A stretch of 64,000 nt of DNA from contig JAIWNF010000031.1 in the NCBI GenBank assembly GCA_025093555.1, positions 62,001-126,000 on the forward strand. The letters are read 5' to 3'. Shown here in pieces: positions 2,139-19,853 of this stretch. The first letter of the stretch is position 1, and each line of letters starts with the position of its first letter. Both the position numbers and the translations under genes were made by a program. Source of the DNA: Circinella umbellata (Eukaryota > Mucoromycota > Mucoromycetes > Mucorales > Lichtheimiaceae). The notes beneath the pieces were generated by a model, which saw only the letters and a list, made by a program, of their open reading frames with translations, was not told the DNA's origin and searched no databases.

Positions 2139-2325
2139 CATTTTATCAATGACTACTTTTTATCAATGAACATTTTATCAATGACTATTTTTTATCAATG
2201 ACCATTTATCAATGACTATTTTTTATCAATGACCATTTTATCAATGACTATTTTTTATCAATGACCATTTATCAATGACTACTTTTTATCAATGAACATT
2301 TATCAATGAACATTTTATCACTAAA
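2139..2325. repeat. minisatellite built on tatcaatga units, short allele (copy A)
   Basis: Tandem units of the form tatcaatga followed by mainly ctattttt, ccat or acat alternate for about 185 bp between the Fanzor promoter and the 3' end of the MULE remnant. The equivalent array in copy B is about 830 bp, so the repeat has expanded or contracted more than fourfold since the copies separated. Confidence 0.9.
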
Positions 2326-10761: not shown

Positions 10762-11343
10762 AGAGAGACACGCATTGACATGGCAACAAAACTGTACGCT
10801 GTATTTGGGTTATCACCATTGAAATTTAGCTCTTTTGTGTTACATCTTTTTTTCCCTCAAAAAAAAAAAGAAATATCATGAAGTTTCCGGAATAATAAAT
10901 ATGTGAAAAAGAACGCCCACCGGGAATATCAATTCTTCTTCTTCTTATGAACATGTATTTATGGTCTCAATCAAAAAAGAAAATGATAAATAAGTATCAA
11001 GGGGGGAAAAAGAGTTTTAAACCTTCTTTAAAGATTGACATTTAATCGAATATATTAGGTGAAGGAAAACGAGGATATAATGAACACCTTTTTTTTTTTT
11101 CTTGTTATGGATTTCCCTCTCTCCTAAACTCCATGAATCCATTATCTTTATATAATATAATTGAAAGGAAAAAAAAAAAAAAGATAAATTACATAATAAG
11201 CTTAAAAAAGGGCGCAGTTTTTTTTTTGTTTATAAAATGCCTTCTTGTTTTATGCAGTTTGAGTATATTTTTATTATAAAAATAGAAATGGAGATCACCT
11301 CTCACAATCATCTGGGGGCTTATTTATTTTTGTCGGAAAACAA
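9837..11343. other. gene-free interval left of the Fanzor element; contains a CA microsatellite
   Basis: Low-complexity A/T-rich DNA with many homopolymer runs and a (CA)n tract at about 10729-10758 followed by (GA)n. It should hold the promoter and first exon of the sugar transporter, but no convincing coding exon was recognised. Confidence 0.5.
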
Positions 11344-11354
11344 ATGATTAATGG
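11344..11354. repeat. left copy of an 11-bp direct repeat (candidate target-site duplication)
   Basis: atgattaatgg occurs here and at 19711-19721, immediately outside the right end of the element defined independently by where copies A and B diverge. Mutator-type elements duplicate about 8-11 bp (usually 9). Confidence 0.65.
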
Positions 11355-11551
11355 AGTTCTTTATTTATCAGAAAAAATTACGTCATAAAAAAAATATAAT
11401 TCACATAAAAAAAAACTGAAGTCAGCGCACAGCATAAATTTTTTTCATGTTAACCAGAAACAAAAGAAACAAGTACTTACTTCACCCCAGTTATTTAATA
11501 CATGAATGCCAGCACATCTTTACTGGCAGTTTTAGTTTTCTTTTATAGCTA
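11355..11551 (-). ncRNA. candidate guide (omega/f) RNA region at the element end
   Basis: In TnpB and Fanzor loci the guide RNA scaffold overlaps or follows the 3' end of the nuclease gene and runs to the transposon end, so its guide copies the flanking DNA. Here about 200 bp separate the Fanzor stop (11552) from the inferred left end (11355). A hairpin with a perfect 6-bp stem (tgccag/ctggca, 11507-11528) lies about 24 nt beyond the stop. No promoter or terminator is recognisable. The RNA is inferred from position only. Confidence 0.3.
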
Positions 11552-14500
11552 TTATTCTTCTTCACTCGCAACTTCTTCTCGAACAAGTTCTTCTTCTTGC
11601 ATTTGTGCATTAATATGTTGGTTTTGATTATCAGGACGTCGAAGGTATAATGGTCTTGAGTTAGGATCACCATTGCTATTGATATAAGCTGTAAATACTC
11701 GTCCAATATTATTTGCAGCGTTAAGATCCCTATCTATTACACGACCTAATACATTTTCACCATTCTCGTCAATTCCTCGTTCACAATGTCGACACCATCG
11801 ATATGGATATACATTACGCCTATAACCAGCTATATATACAATATTATTATTACGTATTATTTTAAAAAGAGAAGAGAAAGTATGATCATTTAGTTTTTAA
11901 AATATTCAATAGTAGCGTGATATTTTTTCTTTTCAAAAATCATCAAGTTGGAAACGATACAAACCAGCACGCACGCGATCAGGACATTGTGATGTACGTG
12001 TTAATGGATTATTTTCTTCATCACAGCACCAAAGTATCTTTCTTCCCTTTCTGTTATTTCCAGTAGTTCTTCTTATTTTTTGTTTTCTATATTTTAAGAA
12101 GAAATAGAGTTAGTTTCTCACTTGAATAAAAAGAAAAACAATTAATATGATTTATCTTACCGATGATTTGTACATATCCACATATCTCTATCTGGATCAC
12201 CCCGACTTTGATGAACTAAAGATACTGTACGATTATGACATACAGAACACATTATACTTGTGTAAGACTCGTTAGTTAATATAACTAAAGTCCGACGTGC
12301 CAACACTGCACGAAATGTCTATATAATAATAAAGAAAAAGAGGTTGAAAAATGATTAAAATCCTGAATTTGTATGATATGATGCTTTAATGTATATAAAT
12401 GGTCACATACTTCCACTGGAGTAGGTTCATAACCCCTCATACTTGGTCTAAGCCTACCGTCACCATAAGCAACAATGGTTGGCAAGGGTGGCACATATCC
12501 AGGTTGTCGTCGTCGTTCTCGACGAACTGCTCGTCGATGATTTTTACGTTCTTTTTTTGAATGTCTGAAAAAGGTAGGGAGTTGAGGCGGAAGTTGTGGC
12601 TGTAAATAACACAAAAAAAATTAGCAATTTCATACCAATGAATTTAATAATACAAGTGGATATACATACATCGTTTTGTTCATCCACACCAATTAGCAAG
12701 TTGGCTAACATTTCCAAGGCACTACGATGTGCTCCAAAATATCGCATACGCATTTCACGATGGCGGTAATGAAAATTAAAGTTTTCATATATTCTATAGT
12801 AAAGAATGTTAGCTATTATGAAGTGTTGCGTGCAATATAGACTTTTTTTTTAAAAAAAGAAAAAAAAAACTACTCACTCTGTATGAAATTCACCTATCAT
12901 ACGAATGTATTGAATGAAATTTCCAGTTGTAGTCACTGTTGCTGGAACAAATCCCATCATATGGTAAAGCAGATGTAAGTCGGTAGCTTCTCGACCACGT
13001 AATGCTTCTTCAGCGACGTATTGACGTCGGTTTTCAAGCTCTCTGTATTGAGACCACTTGAACAAAGATTGGACTCTATTATTTAGGTAAATAGTTATAA
13101 TATAATTAATGTATGCCAATTATAATAAATTATTATCTTAGTTAATATTACTACATATTAAAAGAAAAAAAAACATACTGATATTGTCCGTTATGTAATT
13201 TTATTGTGTGCTGTTCACGTTGTTGATCTGTTTCCAGCGCATCCAGTGTATCCACAGCAGTGACCAAAGAACGAATGCCTATTTGTTTTATTAATATAGA
13301 TAATTTTTTAAATAACAGTAAGTACACATTTGCTCTTTGGTAAAGCACAGTTATAGCAATGTAACAATAAGTACGTTTATTACTGTACCTGGATCAATAT
13401 ATACTAAGCGAGAGTCAGCGGCGCGTTGTTGAGTTAATCCCTGAGGATTTTTAGAGAGATGATACATCCCACGTCGCCATGCTGTCAAGTCTTGATTACG
13501 AGGATATCGTACAACTTCTCTAGAGGACTGTGGCAATCGCTCTAAAATCATATACGATTAAAGTTAAAAAAAAAATAATGGGATATAAACATTTTGGTAC
13601 AACATCAAAATAAAGTTGTAATAAGCAGTATATTTACCACCACGGATAGTTGCGATTGGTCTTCTGAACGTCAGTGACACCCCAACACCATCAGTTTCAA
13701 TATAATTGTTGAACAAATACCGTTCACGATGTTGAGATGGAAACATACCGGCTTCTATAAATTAAAAGGACACTCGTGCTATTCATCAGTTTTTGCTACG
13801 CCTTGAAGAAAATCATTGAAAAAGATCTTATTTCAAATAAAGAATACTTGCCGTCAGTTTCCCAATATGTACAGCGGCGAGGTATAACGTGATTCAAATT
13901 AAATATATCCTCCCATATTTGTTCCATTTGAACAGAAGAAAGTGCTCGAAAGGCAGCAATTGTGATTAGTCGATGTTGTCGTCTTCCTCTTGGTGGGTTA
14001 GGTGACTAATAGCATGTATCCAACGTTTATATTAGAAGATACTCTGTTTAAAATATACATTGAATATTAATAATACAATAGAAAATGCTTACCATGATAT
14101 GAGGAGGCATGTGGGCGTTAGGGTACTGAATTGAATAAATTTTTAAGATATGATATAGTGACCGTTGATCGATTGGCATGTAAGCCACTTGATGCTTTGC
14201 AACAGGAAGTACAGTCCACCGTCTTACACCATTTTCTTCTATTTGGTTCAGTAAATATACTAAATAAGTAGGCAATCGTTGATAAATGTTTACTTGTTGC
14301 ACGCTACTTGGCCTTTCAATGATACTTTGGGCATTTTCATCAGCAAACGCTGTTTGAAAAGCTTGATGATGTTCTCTGCGTGATGTAAAAGCAAAAGAAA
14401 AGAAAATAAGTTCGTTAAATACATAGAATAGTATTATACAGTAAAAAGTATCAGGTACTGTAATAAAAAAAAAGTGACACTTACGCATAATAATTATTTA

Positions 14501-16008
14501 CTCTGTTTCGGATGGCAGCGGGAAACATAGAAATAATATTGTTCGGGAGATGATCAGATCGGTCCACGAGTTGCTTGTAAATTTTATTTGCTGTTAGATT
14601 AAAAAAAAGAAAGATAATAAGAAGTTATTATTTATTAATTTCAGCAATGTTAACAGTAAACATAAATTATAATAGCAAAGCATGATTTAATACGTTACCC
14701 AAAGTATTAGGTGATTGTCGTAAGTTTATATTAAGCTCGGTAACCAATCCATTAATGTAAGATAACCATACTCTTTTCAAAAAGTTAGGAATATTCATAA
14801 GCAAGTGATTACGGGCATCTATTATAAATGGTAATAAATGACAAAAATTAGACTCTTGTATAGGTAACAAAATAAAATATAGAATATTAAGGGACGACGA
14901 TAAAATTCAACAATACATACTTGTCATCGCTTTTCTGGCAAAATTTCTTCTAACTTCGGCACGTAAACCAGGATCCCATGCAGGTACTGCGTAATAAGCT
15001 AATAGTATTTAATTAGAGCCTATTACAGTACATAATCATGCACTATTTGGTAATTCATAAAAACAAACGTAAAGCTTACCTTGACCATTATTTTGTACAC
15101 GAGCAGGATTAAAGTGATTTGTAAATGTATTATCAAGTTCAGGGTAAGGTGTTGGCTAAACAATATATGTATATATGTATATGGTTAATAAGTTATTCAT
15201 GTTAGGCATGTGGACAGTCAATACATAACTCTATAAACAAAACTTACTCGAGCAAGAGCTTCACCAGGTGGTGTCGTCACCAAATGAAAGGCATTTTCCC
15301 AAAAGTTTTGATCTGTTAATACAGGACGAGTGACATTGGCAGGATCTTCAACAGATCGTAACACATGTAACGTTACAAGGTTCATTGCATCCCGTCGAAG
15401 AATAGTATATTCTTCTGCAAGTCGACGTATGAAATTCTATAAAAAAAACCACAATTCAGTAAATACTTTTCATTATATATTTGCACGTGAAGTTTTAACT
15501 ACAACAAAAAAAAAATGCATATATAATTACCAACATATCCGGCGTACCAGGTGGTGGCTGCCTTGCACCTGCCAAATAAGGATTTTCTAGAATGGTTTGG
15601 AGTTTACATTTACGTGTAACAACTCTGTTACGTCTTCTTGCTGCTCTGTGATTATCGGGGAAAATTTCTCTCAAATATGCTCTAGCTCGTTCTCGTCCTG
15701 ATAAAACACATAATAAAAATAAGTAAATACATCTAATATTGTTATATTGATATGCGTGTGTGTATAACATAAAGTACTACATTATCCAAATACTTACGTT
15801 CCGCCAATGTTTCCGGTCTTGGATTTGGACCCCGTGTTACGGGGAATACCACCTCTTGGTCTTCAATAATATCAGCATCAGATCGATTACTTAGAAATGA
15901 AAACCCTGACCCGTTTGAATTAAATGAATTTATGGAATCGATTGACATGGCATCCTCAGTGTCATCATCACCTACGCTGTCGGCACTATCAATATCCATA
16001 GGCTCCAT
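11552..16008 (-). CDS. Fanzor1-type RNA-guided nuclease (TnpB-like), intact, 18 exons, 952 aa
   Basis: Eukaryotic homologue of TnpB, the RNA-guided DNA endonuclease of IS200/IS605-type elements; expected to act in the nucleus. Exons: 16008-15798, 15697-15531, 15436-15248, 15155-15080, 14998-14921, 14854-14699, 14590-14485, 14375-14093, 14005-13852, 13754-13638, 13541-13389, 13278-13179, 13075-12878, 12793-12670, 12599-12411, 12318-12161, 12086-11965, 11829-11552. They sum to 2859 nt, with no internal stop; intron 9 is GC-AG. Motifs: ETDGVGVSLTF before the core; RuvC-I LVYIDPGIRSLVT (Asp562); AYGDG near 750, where TnpB has its RuvC-II Glu; TNESYTS with Glu784; zinc ribbon C791xxC794...C873xxC876; RuvC-III DRDLNAANNI (Asp895). 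A basic block near 716-735 could bind nucleic acid or serve as a nuclear signal. All catalytic-site candidates are present, so it looks functional. It sits inside a MULE whose transposase is dead. Confidence 0.93.
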
Positions 16009-16034
16009 GGCTGGAGAATAAGAACAAGTAGCAA

Positions 16035-16102
16035 TAAAGAAAATGTAAGAAAATGTAAGAAAATGTAAGAAAATGTAAGAAAATGTAAAAAAATGTAAAA
16101 AA
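16035..16102. repeat. 10-bp A-rich tandem repeat upstream of Fanzor copy B
   Basis: Same aaaatgtaag array as at 1983-2050, directly 5' of the Fanzor ATG (16008). Confidence 0.85.
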
Positions 16103-16190
16103 AAAAGAGATGATGAATAATTTTATGAGGTTTGCAGAGACCGTTCTTTTATACTTAACCGTTGGCTAAATAGATCATTTTCAGAACAGC

Positions 16191-17021
16191 CATTTTATCA
16201 ATGACTACTTTTTATCAATGAACATTTTATCAATGACTATTTTTTATCAATGACCATTTATCAATGACTATTTTTTATCAATGAACATTTTATCAATGAC
16301 TATTTTTTATCAATGACCATTTATCAATGACTATTTTTTATCAATGACTATTTTATCAATGACTATTTTTTATCAATGACTATTTATCAATGACTACTTT
16401 TTATCAATGGCCATTTTATCAATGACTATTTTTTATCAATGACTATTTTATCAATGACTATTTTTTATCAATGACTATTTATCAATGACTATTTTTTATC
16501 AATGACCATTTTATCAATGACTATTTTTTATCAATGACTATTTTATCAATGACTATTTTTTATCAATGACTATTTATCAATGACTATTTTTTATCAATGA
16601 CCATTTTATCAATGACTATTTTTTATCAATGACTATTTTATCAATGACTATTTTTTATCAATGACCATTTATCAATGACCATTTTTTATCAATGAACATT
16701 TATCAATGACTATTTTTTATCAATGACCATTTATCAATGACTACTTTTTATCAATGACCATTTATCAATGACTACTTTTTATCAATGGCCATTTTATCAA
16801 TGACTATTTTTTATCAATGAACATTTTATCAATGACTACTTTTTATCAATGGCCATTTATCAATGACTATTTTTTATCAATGAACATTTTATCAATGACT
16901 ATTTTTTATCAATGGCCATTTTATCAATGACTATTTTTTATCAATGAACATTTATCAATGACCATTTTTTATCAATGAACATTTATCAATGACTATTTTT
17001 TATCAATGACCATTTTATCAC
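16191..17021. repeat. minisatellite built on tatcaatga units, expanded allele (copy B)
   Basis: About 830 bp of alternating tatcaatgactattttt / tatcaatgaccat-type units, with variants acat, ggccat and ctactttt. The variants are interspersed rather than blocked, which suggests repeated slippage or unequal exchange. It lies between the Fanzor promoter and the MULE remnant. Confidence 0.92.
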
Positions 17022-17580
17022 TAAAAATAAAGATAGGAAAAGAGAGAGAAAAAGCCAATGAGACCTCAAAAGAACAAAATTTAATTGTAGCCAATATAAT
17101 TGAGGTGTAGTCAATTAAAACAAAATATTCTCTCTATTTATACATGAGATCCTCATCATCACTTCAGCAGGATGTATCAATTATGTTTCTGAGAATTGTG
17201 ATAATAAAGAAAATGATTTTTAAATTAAACTTTGTGCGGTTGACGACATGATCCGTCTACACAGCTGTTACCCATTTGTACTACAAGGAAATGACCACAT
17301 GCCCATTGGCGAAGGTCATTGTAGTCTCCCATTTTAATAAATATAACTTTTAACCTTTTATCATTTTTAAAGACCGCGGACGTCCGTATTTCTGAAACAC
17401 CCAGTCGTCAGATTAACAGCACCAGACATACTTGTGATTATATCTTTTACTTTAAGCAAGAAAATATGTGTACCATAAAAAGAAAGGGAACAAGATAAAT
17501 GGTGTACGTACAATAATTACGTATTGTACCATTTAGTATAAATGTTTTGATTTAATTATGAGTATATGATACAATGAAAG
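17022..17580. other. non-coding spacer inside transposon copy B
   Basis: AT-rich spacer between the minisatellite and the C-terminal remains of the MULE transposase. No gene is seen. Confidence 0.5.
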
Positions 17581-17599
17581 CAAAGAATAATGGTTAATT

Positions 17600-19363
17600 C
17601 CATTACCGGAAAAACATTTCCGCTTAACAAAATTGTAAAAAAAAAATTATTGGCTGAAGATTTATTGAGAAAAACAAAGAGTTACTTTGAATACTACTTT
17701 TTGTTTGTTATTATTCAATATAATAATTATACAGTAGAGGAAAAGTGTTTGATTGTTATTGTTACTACGTACCAACAAATATTACGAATACTTTTCTACA
17801 GTATTTCTACGTATACGTACATGTTGTTATTAAAAATTATGATACATACAGGTCTCCAAGCTTTACACCATTTCTCTCTTTTAGGGTACCAATATTGGTA
17901 CATATAATCATAGAATTCAACATAACCATTTACATCGTGCCACATTGATTTAAACGAATCCCATAGAACCTCAAACAAATCAATACTATCACAATTCATC
18001 AAAAGATTCAAAGAATTACGAGCTTGCCGTTGTTGTTCTTTTGTTTCATGTGTAGAATTTTCGACTTTGATCTTATAGAAATTAAAACAATGAGTTACAA
18101 GTTAATACATCGTACCAAAACAAATAATAACGTTTCATATATAAAATAAAACCAAATTCACTTACCATTTTTTTTATATGTTTCTCCCATGCTCTTTTAA
18201 TGTGCCAATGACACAAAAGAACCTGAACAACATCACCCTATACTTGGTTTATAGCATTTATTTCAACAGGACTACAATCGATCATTATAGACTTAGGGAC
18301 AAAGTTGATGACACTTTTTAACCATTCAAACCAACTAGCAACAGAGACTGTGGTTTCCGAGTTTGTTATCATAAACCCAACAGGACAACCTTTGTTTGTA
18401 TCAAAATTTTTGCAAACAATGGTAAATAAATAGCAACTATCAGAACTTCGAATAAATGATTTACATGTTTTATGTGTCGAACCAACACAAACAATATCCT
18501 GCCTTTGAAGAATCTAAAAAGAAATACCATAATAATCAATATCGAATCAATCAAAATAAATCATCAATTAACAACAGATCATTTTTACTTACTGGTTTTT
18601 GCCATTTGGATATCCAAGCAATTGTAAATCTATTATTATGTTCATCAATGTTTGACAATACATCATATCCTTCATCATCAAGATAGTTAAGCCAAAGACG
18701 TACACTATCTTTATCGAGTGCTGCTTTTTTTGAAAGTCGAGCAAGTTTTGTTTAAATGAGATTTTGGACGTCTTTATAATGAATAAGTTCTGACACAGGC
18801 AACAAGTTTGGGTTATTATCAAGCTATACATTTGTTTTTTTATAACAATTAGTATTACATCATTATTATCATATATTAAGTTTACAAAACATACGTAATC
18901 TCTTTCTTTACGCGTCAAACACAATGCATTCTGTATAGCTTCCCAGTCCATATTTTTATCAACACGTTCAATAATCCATTTGCGAGCTTCTTCAGGTAAA
19001 CGAGATGCAATAATACTTTCTGAATTTGTAGGATCATGATTATGGTGATACCAATAATAAACAGCTTCGTATGAATCATCTGAATACTTATACAAATCAA
19101 TCTTGGCAGGACAATCAACTTTAGGAATCATTTTGGATGGATCACGTTTGCGTTTTTTGGAAGGAGATATTGATGATGATGACGACGAAGAAGAAGCACT
19201 TGATGCTTTACGAGGTTTTCCACCATGGTTACAAACAAAACGATACTTCATTTGATATACAGCAGGACGGCCAATTGTTTCTGACTTTTCATTGTTATTA
19301 TTATCATTATCATTATTATTGTTGCTATTGATGCTGTTGCTATAGTTATTATTATTATCATTG

Positions 19364-19397
<34 letters not shown>

Positions 19398-19609
19398 TTA
19401 GTTGCTTTGCCTAAGCTAAAACCATTACGAATAAATGTGGCATGATTTTGAGGAACTGTTTTAAACCATGACTGCCATTCTTCTTCAGTGTTAAAGCTTT
19501 TACAAAAAGGATGTACGTCGTAATTGGGAGTTTCTTTTGAGATAAAACCTAGTTCGTCAAGTAACGAACCTTTAGAGAAATGTTGGGGGTTTGAAGGAAT
19601 GGCAGCCAT
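17600..19609 (-). pseudogene. MULE (Mutator-like) transposase remnant, copy B
   Basis: ATG at 19609 starts MAAIPSNPQHF, with a WQSWF block typical of FAR1/MULE N-termini. The frame shifts by one at the AAT microsatellite (19330-19397) before an Asn-rich linker and the zinc module (19251-18895; CNHGGK, DCPAKI, YHHNHDP). Then follows an exon to about 18600 and the DDE core (18518-18175): GSTHKT, GFMITNSE, MIDCSP, CHWHIKRAWEKH. A C-terminal exon ends KWCKAWRP near 17855. Inactivating lesions: the microsatellite frameshift; TAA at 18752-18754 (CAA in copy A); the first catalytic Asp changed to Gly (codon 18481-18483); and TAG at 18238-18240, shared with copy A and so older than the duplication. 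It cannot be a working transposase. Confidence 0.82.
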
Positions 19610-19710
19610 GGTCAAAGAGGAAAGTAAACAAACAAAAAAAAGTTTTATAAAAATTGCGGATGTATAATTTAATTTACGTCACGACTTTCTGGTGATTTTT
19701 AGCTACGCCG

Positions 19711-19721
19711 ATGATTAATGG
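19711..19721. repeat. right copy of the 11-bp direct repeat (candidate target-site duplication)
   Basis: Exact match to 11344-11354, abutting the end of the element. The first a also belongs to the part shared with copy A, so the duplication may be 10 or 11 bp. Confidence 0.65.
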
Positions 19722-19853
19722 GGGATCAGCAAGTTTACTTGGTATATGTTTATATCCATCCACTGCGTTGTCTACTATATGAACACCGAAATAGGAAACA
19801 ATAGAGTTACCCGTCATAAAAATATAAATGTGATCAATGATAGGAACAAAGCT
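19712..19853 (-). other. open frame at the right flank of the Fanzor element, possibly a disrupted host exon
   Basis: On the minus strand a frame following an AG at 19854-19855 stays open for about 47 codons up to the transposon end (IVSYFGVHIVDNAVDGYK and so on). If the element and one direct repeat are left out, the frame continues across the junction for about 16 more codons and stops at 11295-11297. This is compatible with insertion into the last exon of a host gene. It could equally be chance: no upstream exon or family was recognised. Confidence 0.25.

Follow-up and report, generated by a model that had tools for sequence, protein, structure and literature searches.

The role that Fanzors, the eukaryotic RNA-guided nucleases, play for the transposons that carry them is little known, according to the part of Yoon et al. 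(2023; PMC10711439) drawn on here, and a locus in the fungus Circinella umbellata raises this question in a concrete form. The stretch of DNA that was analysed, referred to as the window, comprises 64,000 nucleotides (C136:62001-126000), and a minus-strand gene within it (11552..16008) was initially annotated as an intact and undescribed Fanzor in a fungal transposon. The gene was found in a Mutator-like element (MULE) present in several copies, and the tetranucleotide CCCA lies immediately ahead of the 8-bp duplication at most left ends of this family, a position that is new. As judged from sequence, a MULE-borne Fanzor1 RNA-guided nuclease with a guide or homing mechanism is the best explanation of the locus, and a rather probable one.

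The gene leads from an ATG at 16008 to a stop codon ending at 11552 through 18 exons (exons 1-6, 16008-15798, 15697-15531, 15436-15248, 15155-15080, 14998-14921 and 14818-14699; exons 7-12, 14590-14485, 14375-14093, 14005-13852, 13754-13638, 13541-13389 and 13278-13179; exons 13-18, 13075-12878, 12793-12670, 12599-12411, 12318-12161, 12086-11965 and 11829-11552). The 17 introns measure 70-135 nucleotides, 16 with GT-AG borders and one with GC-AG (exon 9 donor, 13852). The initial annotation had given the gene coordinates correctly, the surrounding mobile element being larger (11352-19710), and its 18 exons and 17 introns do join into one open frame, as borne out by related proteins, kept splice sites and selection. 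The RuvC-I, CxxC and RuvC-III (RDLNAANNI) motifs that it had named are all present in the product, which is, however, of 940 amino acids rather than the 952 codons proposed. The description as intact agrees with the unbroken 2823-nucleotide frame and with the excess of synonymous variants among copies.

It is most improbable that the model is an artefact of exons chosen by eye in a degenerate region. The model has to accept a GC donor as well as a weak donor, gtttgt at exon 17, but homologous predicted proteins, conserved splice sites and selection refute the artefact for most junctions. In an alignment read by eye, 12 of the 17 exon junctions, including the GC-AG one, are shared with one or both of two deposited hypothetical proteins that others had predicted, P0001 (Circinella minor, 522 amino acids) and P0002 (C. 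umbellata, 682 amino acids), and junctions 6/7, 7/8, 12/13 and 15/16 have no support from either. The splice dinucleotides are kept in the copies termed A, C101, C174, C5 and C197 and in the broken copy on C15, and also at exons 4-18 of that on C195, where the contig ends inside the gene. Forced splicing was rejected on the strength of the homologous predicted proteins, the kept splice sites and the pattern of variants among copies. Uncertainty in the model lies in the ends of the final two exons: P0002 has a later acceptor than that modelled for exon 17 and lacks some residues of exon 18, where a 39-nucleotide in-frame intron that would leave the frame unaffected is possible.

The 940-residue protein is almost certainly a Fanzor1, an identification based on two fingerprints, a zinc-ribbon profile and a homologue from Lichtheimia ornata. 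The fingerprints, a DPG motif and a displaced glutamate, occur in less than 1% of TnpB-family homologues according to the cited part of Yoon et al. (2023, PMC10711439), and both are present here. RuvC-I contains IDPG (549-552, with DPG at 550-552); the RuvC-II glutamate E772 stands six residues ahead of the CxxC of the zinc ribbon (E772-SYTSIM-C779SVC, with CSVC at 779-782); the second CxxC (WCRHC 860-864, C861-C864) is followed by RDLNAANNI (882-890), which contains the RuvC-III aspartate D883, so that D550, E772 and D883 are the catalytic candidates. The spacing DPGx(120-160)Ex6CxxCx(12-18)CxxCx(4-8)D was not found in the protein, the intervals being 219, 78 and 18 residues instead; as given in the part of Yoon et al. 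cited, that pattern was written for prokaryotic TnpBs rather than as a Fanzor1 criterion, and the RuvC and zinc-finger parts of Fanzor1s carry insertions.

The TNB zinc-ribbon profile of TnpB and Cas12f (PF07282) matched the 940-residue protein weakly (20.8 bits, cut-off 26.3, E 4e-4), whereas its relatives P0002, P0003 and P0004 exceed the cut-off. In a search of the genome with PF07282 the Fanzor locus was not among the three matches, and the NCBIfam profiles gave no match for the 940-residue protein and 29.1 bits for P0004 to guided_TnpB (cut-off, 100). Three protein-database searches, each of which scored the approximately 8000 candidates sharing most words, provided lists of relatives that are to be taken as lower bounds. 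P0001 was found at 90% identity over 60% (98% over aligned columns) and P0002 at 67% over 64% (91% over aligned columns); both derive from partial, shorter gene models with no assigned function, P0001 ending just past RuvC-I and P0002 lacking it. With the RuvC part (residues 530-930) as the query, the L. ornata protein P0003, which carries DPG and the displaced glutamate, was retrieved at 32% over 97% (E 7.5e-42); it and P0004 of the same species, both hypothetical proteins, form a lineage separate from the Circinella Fanzor. With this locus comes a Fanzor1 lineage of fungi that is conserved, rich in introns and far removed from the solved Fanzors. By motif, three other TnpB-like genes were observed in the genome (L001 on C200, L002 on C156 and L003 on C134), two resembling Fanzor2, of which L002 is decayed, and the third resembling a further Fanzor1.

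The whole element occupies 11352..19710 on the minus strand (8359 bp), with limits at which the homology of the copies stops sharply and the flanks differ. Its left (5') end, CGGCGTAGCTAAAAATCACCAG, begins at 19710 and its right (3') end, GATAAATAAAGAACTCCA, closes at 11352, the two forming terminal inverted repeats that, judged by eye, are imperfect (CGGCGT.. and TGGAGT..). The 8-bp target-site duplication TTAATCAT is present on the left at 19711..19718 and on the right at 11344..11351, and matching duplications were also found at the copies on C197 (CTATGATG) and C174 (TGGATCA(C)). MuDR/MULE elements are characterised by terminal inverted repeats and 8-11-bp duplications. Terminal repeats are present here, along with 8-bp duplications in three of the six copies for which both ends are known, and the element is very probably, on its sequence features, a MULE-type, non-IS607 eukaryotic transposon that carries a Fanzor. 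That the gene sits in a fungal transposon is upheld by the repeated copies, their sharp ends and the duplications of their target sites.

The MULE part itself (17845..19710, minus strand) is decayed, with FAR1-like and MULE-like segments, in-frame stops and the SWIM half missing. Of the transposase frames read (A, B, C174, C37 and C57a), those of A, B, C174 and C37 have in-frame stops. The window pieces score below the Pfam cut-offs for FAR1 (22.9 bits, cut-off 28.1) and MULE (18.1 bits, cut-off 27.6); a fuller MULE relative on C57, in which the SWIM half is present, is below that for MULE (21.8 bits) and above that for SWIM (22.8 bits, cut-off 19.6). The other end of this relative was not found. 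Fuller relatives are seen at C57:697887 (plus strand) and C57:720463 (minus strand), facing each other 22 kb apart with an identical outer flank, as either an inverted duplication or an assembly feature. A Fanzor-less element of approximately 0.33 kb on C179 (L083) has similar terminal repeats and a near-duplication (7/8 bases) at its ends. Between the MULE part and the Fanzor gene lie approximately 0.8 kb of unique DNA (from approx. 17845) and then a minisatellite of approximately 26 copies of a 31/32-bp unit (16190..17020, minus strand), directly upstream of the start codon. Scanning the window for tRNAs, and against Rfam at gathering scores, gave no matches.

A protein search of the genome gave at least 131 exon-level matches, among which full Fanzor genes lie on C136 (two), C101, C174, C5 and C197, besides which there are a cut gene (C195), a broken gene (C15) and fragments of greater age. 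The window copy is denoted B and the second copy on C136 is denoted A; the latter (C136:59299-66922) provides the first 4922 nucleotides of the window with its left part, in tandem orientation to the window copy, and its minisatellite (window 2142-2316) has about 6 units as opposed to 26. Both ends were located for six full-length copies (A and B, and those on C5, C101, C174 and C197), a count that leaves out C195, at a contig end, and C15, broken and with inserts. The 2823-nucleotide frame is unbroken in five of the six (A, B, C174, C5 and C197), that on C101 having a 2-nucleotide deletion, and the frames of A and B are identical. The MULE-Fanzor element has probably undergone recent multiplication in a Circinella-like fungus. 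The C197 copy (L068) contains a nested 5.9-kb insert with open frames named Helitron-like by eye, with no family search. The left ends of the older Fanzor copies on C142, C189, C79 and C127 were not found within approximately 6-7 kb upstream.

Among seven Fanzor copies, 17 nonsynonymous and 25 synonymous variants were counted (omega, 0.21-0.28), while neutrality would give approximately 72-78% nonsynonymous ones (p between 3e-7 and 2e-5 according to the assumed transition bias), a pattern that indicates purifying selection. The broken C15 copy differs from B by 82 nonsynonymous and 30 synonymous changes. Divergence from B in five copies is 0.89-1.53% for the MULE half and 0-0.38% for the gene with the right end.

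The left terminal sequence has 14 genome matches with up to three mismatches, eight of which belong to the Fanzor-element family, namely the six full copies and the ends on C37 and C46. At six of these eight left ends (C136B, C197, C37, C46, C5 and C101; at 19719..19722, minus strand, for the window copy) the 8-bp duplication is immediately preceded by CCCA, the predicted target-adjacent motif (TAM) and/or insertion-site motif, and at C174 this motif is displaced by one base. Taking the background of the window (0.00172 per base and strand), the binomial probability of at least six in eight is approximately 7e-16. Among the six copies in which the Fanzor is seen, CCCA is exact in four, shifted in one and absent in one. 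The ends on C37 and C46 are at contig ends, with the Fanzor not seen there; the last part of C37 (L069, approx. 0.7 kb) is 97% identical to DNA beside or upstream of the Fanzor fragment on C142 (L018), and a short Myb/SANT-like frame, recognised by eye, is found further along this tail.

At the right, the last 180 nucleotides of the element (11352..11531, minus strand, including the right terminal repeat) are conserved and form the putative omega RNA scaffold. They equal or exceed exon 18 and intron 17 in conservation in all five diverged or broken copies, and a fold of 179 nucleotides of this end has a predicted energy of -39.3 kcal/mol (z -2.78; a single one of 200 shuffled sequences reached that stability), so that a guide RNA from the right end is plausible. 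The position of CCCA would set the predicted guide region in the right flank, starting with the target-site duplication (11332..11351, minus strand): were the guide to be a copy of the right flank beginning where the element ends, the empty site, made of CCCA and the right flank, would equal TAM plus target. The right junction of the occupied site reads TCCA followed by the same flank sequence and is one base away from CCCA. Genome matches to CCCA plus 16 nucleotides of the window copy's guide with up to three mismatches numbered 20, as many as for a reversed control, and the sole match with fewer than two mismatches was the element's own right junction (T for C).

A mechanism can be proposed on these bases. 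A MULE transposase supplied in trans would move the element, its own transposase being dead, and would make the 8-bp duplications. A transcript running past the right end would yield an RNA with the conserved 180 nucleotides as scaffold and the flank, from the duplication onwards, as guide. The Fanzor with this RNA would cut CCCA followed by the duplication and the right flank, a target left uninterrupted in the empty allele or, once the element has been excised, in the donor site, and repair off the occupied copy would restore or spread the element. TCCA at the end of the element would keep the occupied right junction from being cut, and a match of only 8 nucleotides would do so for the left junction. 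RNA-guided action of the Fanzor at its own empty sites is, on the sequences at hand, moderately probable; that CCCA is the Fanzor TAM falls a little short of that and is best called an open possibility. A bolder proposal, to be held as doubtful, is that CCCA is the TAM and that RNA-guided cutting, not transposase preference, sets which insertions persist, with TCCA protecting the occupied site and the duplication opening the guide. If so, only copies landing directly 3' of CCCA would cut the empty allele and hence be retained or copied, and the near-identity of the Fanzor half despite differing MULE halves would reflect break-driven conversion.

CCCA could instead reflect the sites at which the MULE transposase prefers to insert, with a left flank that mimics the element's own ...CTCCA end, and the Fanzor TAM could be a different one. 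The resemblance of the right end, CTCCA, to the motif speaks for such a preference, as does the fact that verified duplications are available for only three Fanzor-bearing copies and that, of the six ends with an exact CCCA, those on C37 and C46 lie at contig ends where no Fanzor is seen. This is a serious rival, if the less likely reading; against it, five similar left ends (C57, C11, C113, C179 and C197:117863) lack CCCA (0/5 as opposed to 7/8 in the family, Fisher p 0.0047; the two same-flank places on C57 were counted once and a weaker second match on C11, with flank CTGC, was excluded), although these ends are few and mostly diverged, and only that on C179 has a near-duplication (7/8 bases) at the other end. 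A further alternative is that the element is a passenger, whose Fanzor is transcribed but owes its conservation to recent spread alone and has ceased to act as a nuclease where the element has inserted. A dead transposase was found in the copies read, the homogeneity of the Fanzor half relative to the MULE half could stem from recent gene conversion, and exons are more variable than introns; this alternative is nonetheless improbable in view of the synonymous excess among the live copies, set against the nonsynonymous excess of the broken C15 copy, and of the retained catalytic candidates.

Several observations weigh against a MULE-borne, RNA-guided Fanzor1 acting at its insertion sites. In three of the six full copies (A, C5 and C101) the left and right flanks differ; the sequence CACACTCT, the left duplication of C37, opens the right flank of C101 and suggests either that copies have recombined or that the assembly was joined within repeats. 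The Fanzor-bearing copy A has CACG in place of CCCA. Introns vary less than exons (11/1634 versus 41/2823 sites, p 0.02), a difference not expected under purifying selection in its simple form, and the synonymous variants are concentrated in codons 543-638, where some may come from one conversion and not all be independent; a diverged copy has probably contributed to the Fanzor variants by conversion. For the right end, covariation was detected in 1 of 32 pairs of the alignment fold and 0 of 54 of the single-sequence fold, no better than in shuffles. No solved Fanzor was matched in sequence searches of the Protein Data Bank with the 940-residue model, P0003 and two alignments, and the structure predicted for P0003 with the aid of four relatives (predicted local distance difference test score, 36.6) was too poor to be used for recognising a TnpB-like fold with REC, WED and RuvC lobes. 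Finally, for the Fanzor1s that Yoon et al. examined (PMC10711439, as far as the cited part goes) the duplication lies inside the RNA scaffold, whereas in the Circinella model it lies in the guide; a duplication placed in the scaffold fits the Circinella element less well, given that its duplication is variable and preceded by a fixed motif.

With regard to known systems, no paper naming both Fanzor and Circinella was found in a literature search, so that the term undescribed holds for this protein, but not for its kind, which has been known since 2013: Fanzor1 in MuDR-type elements of Mucorales (ROr-4, PBl-3 and MCi-4) was described by Bao and Jurka (PMC3627910, in the part cited here and below). 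The Circinella element resembles these three in having a Fanzor1 in a Mutator-type element, terminal repeats and duplications of 8-9 bp in the same fungal order. They encode no MuDR transposase in that description and have 9-bp duplications, whereas the Circinella element has a decayed transposase half, 8-bp duplications and a fixed CCCA. MCi-2 of Mucor circinelloides is also similar in its near-identical 3' Fanzor half, more variable 5' half and fixed insertion-site motif, and differs in its 11-12-bp duplications of the pattern ATAATTNNNN(N), Crypton-like remains and absence of recognisable terminal repeats in that account. Fixed motifs at Fanzor-element insertion sites are thus not new (TTTT before the CRe-1, 2 and 3 duplications; ATAATTNNNN for MCi-2). 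The layout of the RuvC triad and the right-end guide, here putative, are shared with SpuFz1, GtFz1 and PpFz1, as described in the portions of PMC10432273 and PMC11423790 considered. Published TAMs lie, in those portions, directly 5' of the target (CATA, TTAAN, CCG, TAG and ATN), those of SpuFz1, GtFz1 and PpFz1 being of 4-5 bases or shorter (CATA, TTAAN and ATN) and that predicted for Circinella being CCCA.

The value of the Circinella element would lie in its being a young, repeated and intact family, from which concrete predictions of the TAM (CCCA), of the guide start and of self-protection can be made from genome sequence alone. With these, the idea that a Fanzor may guard, or home to, the insertion sites of its transposon becomes directly testable.

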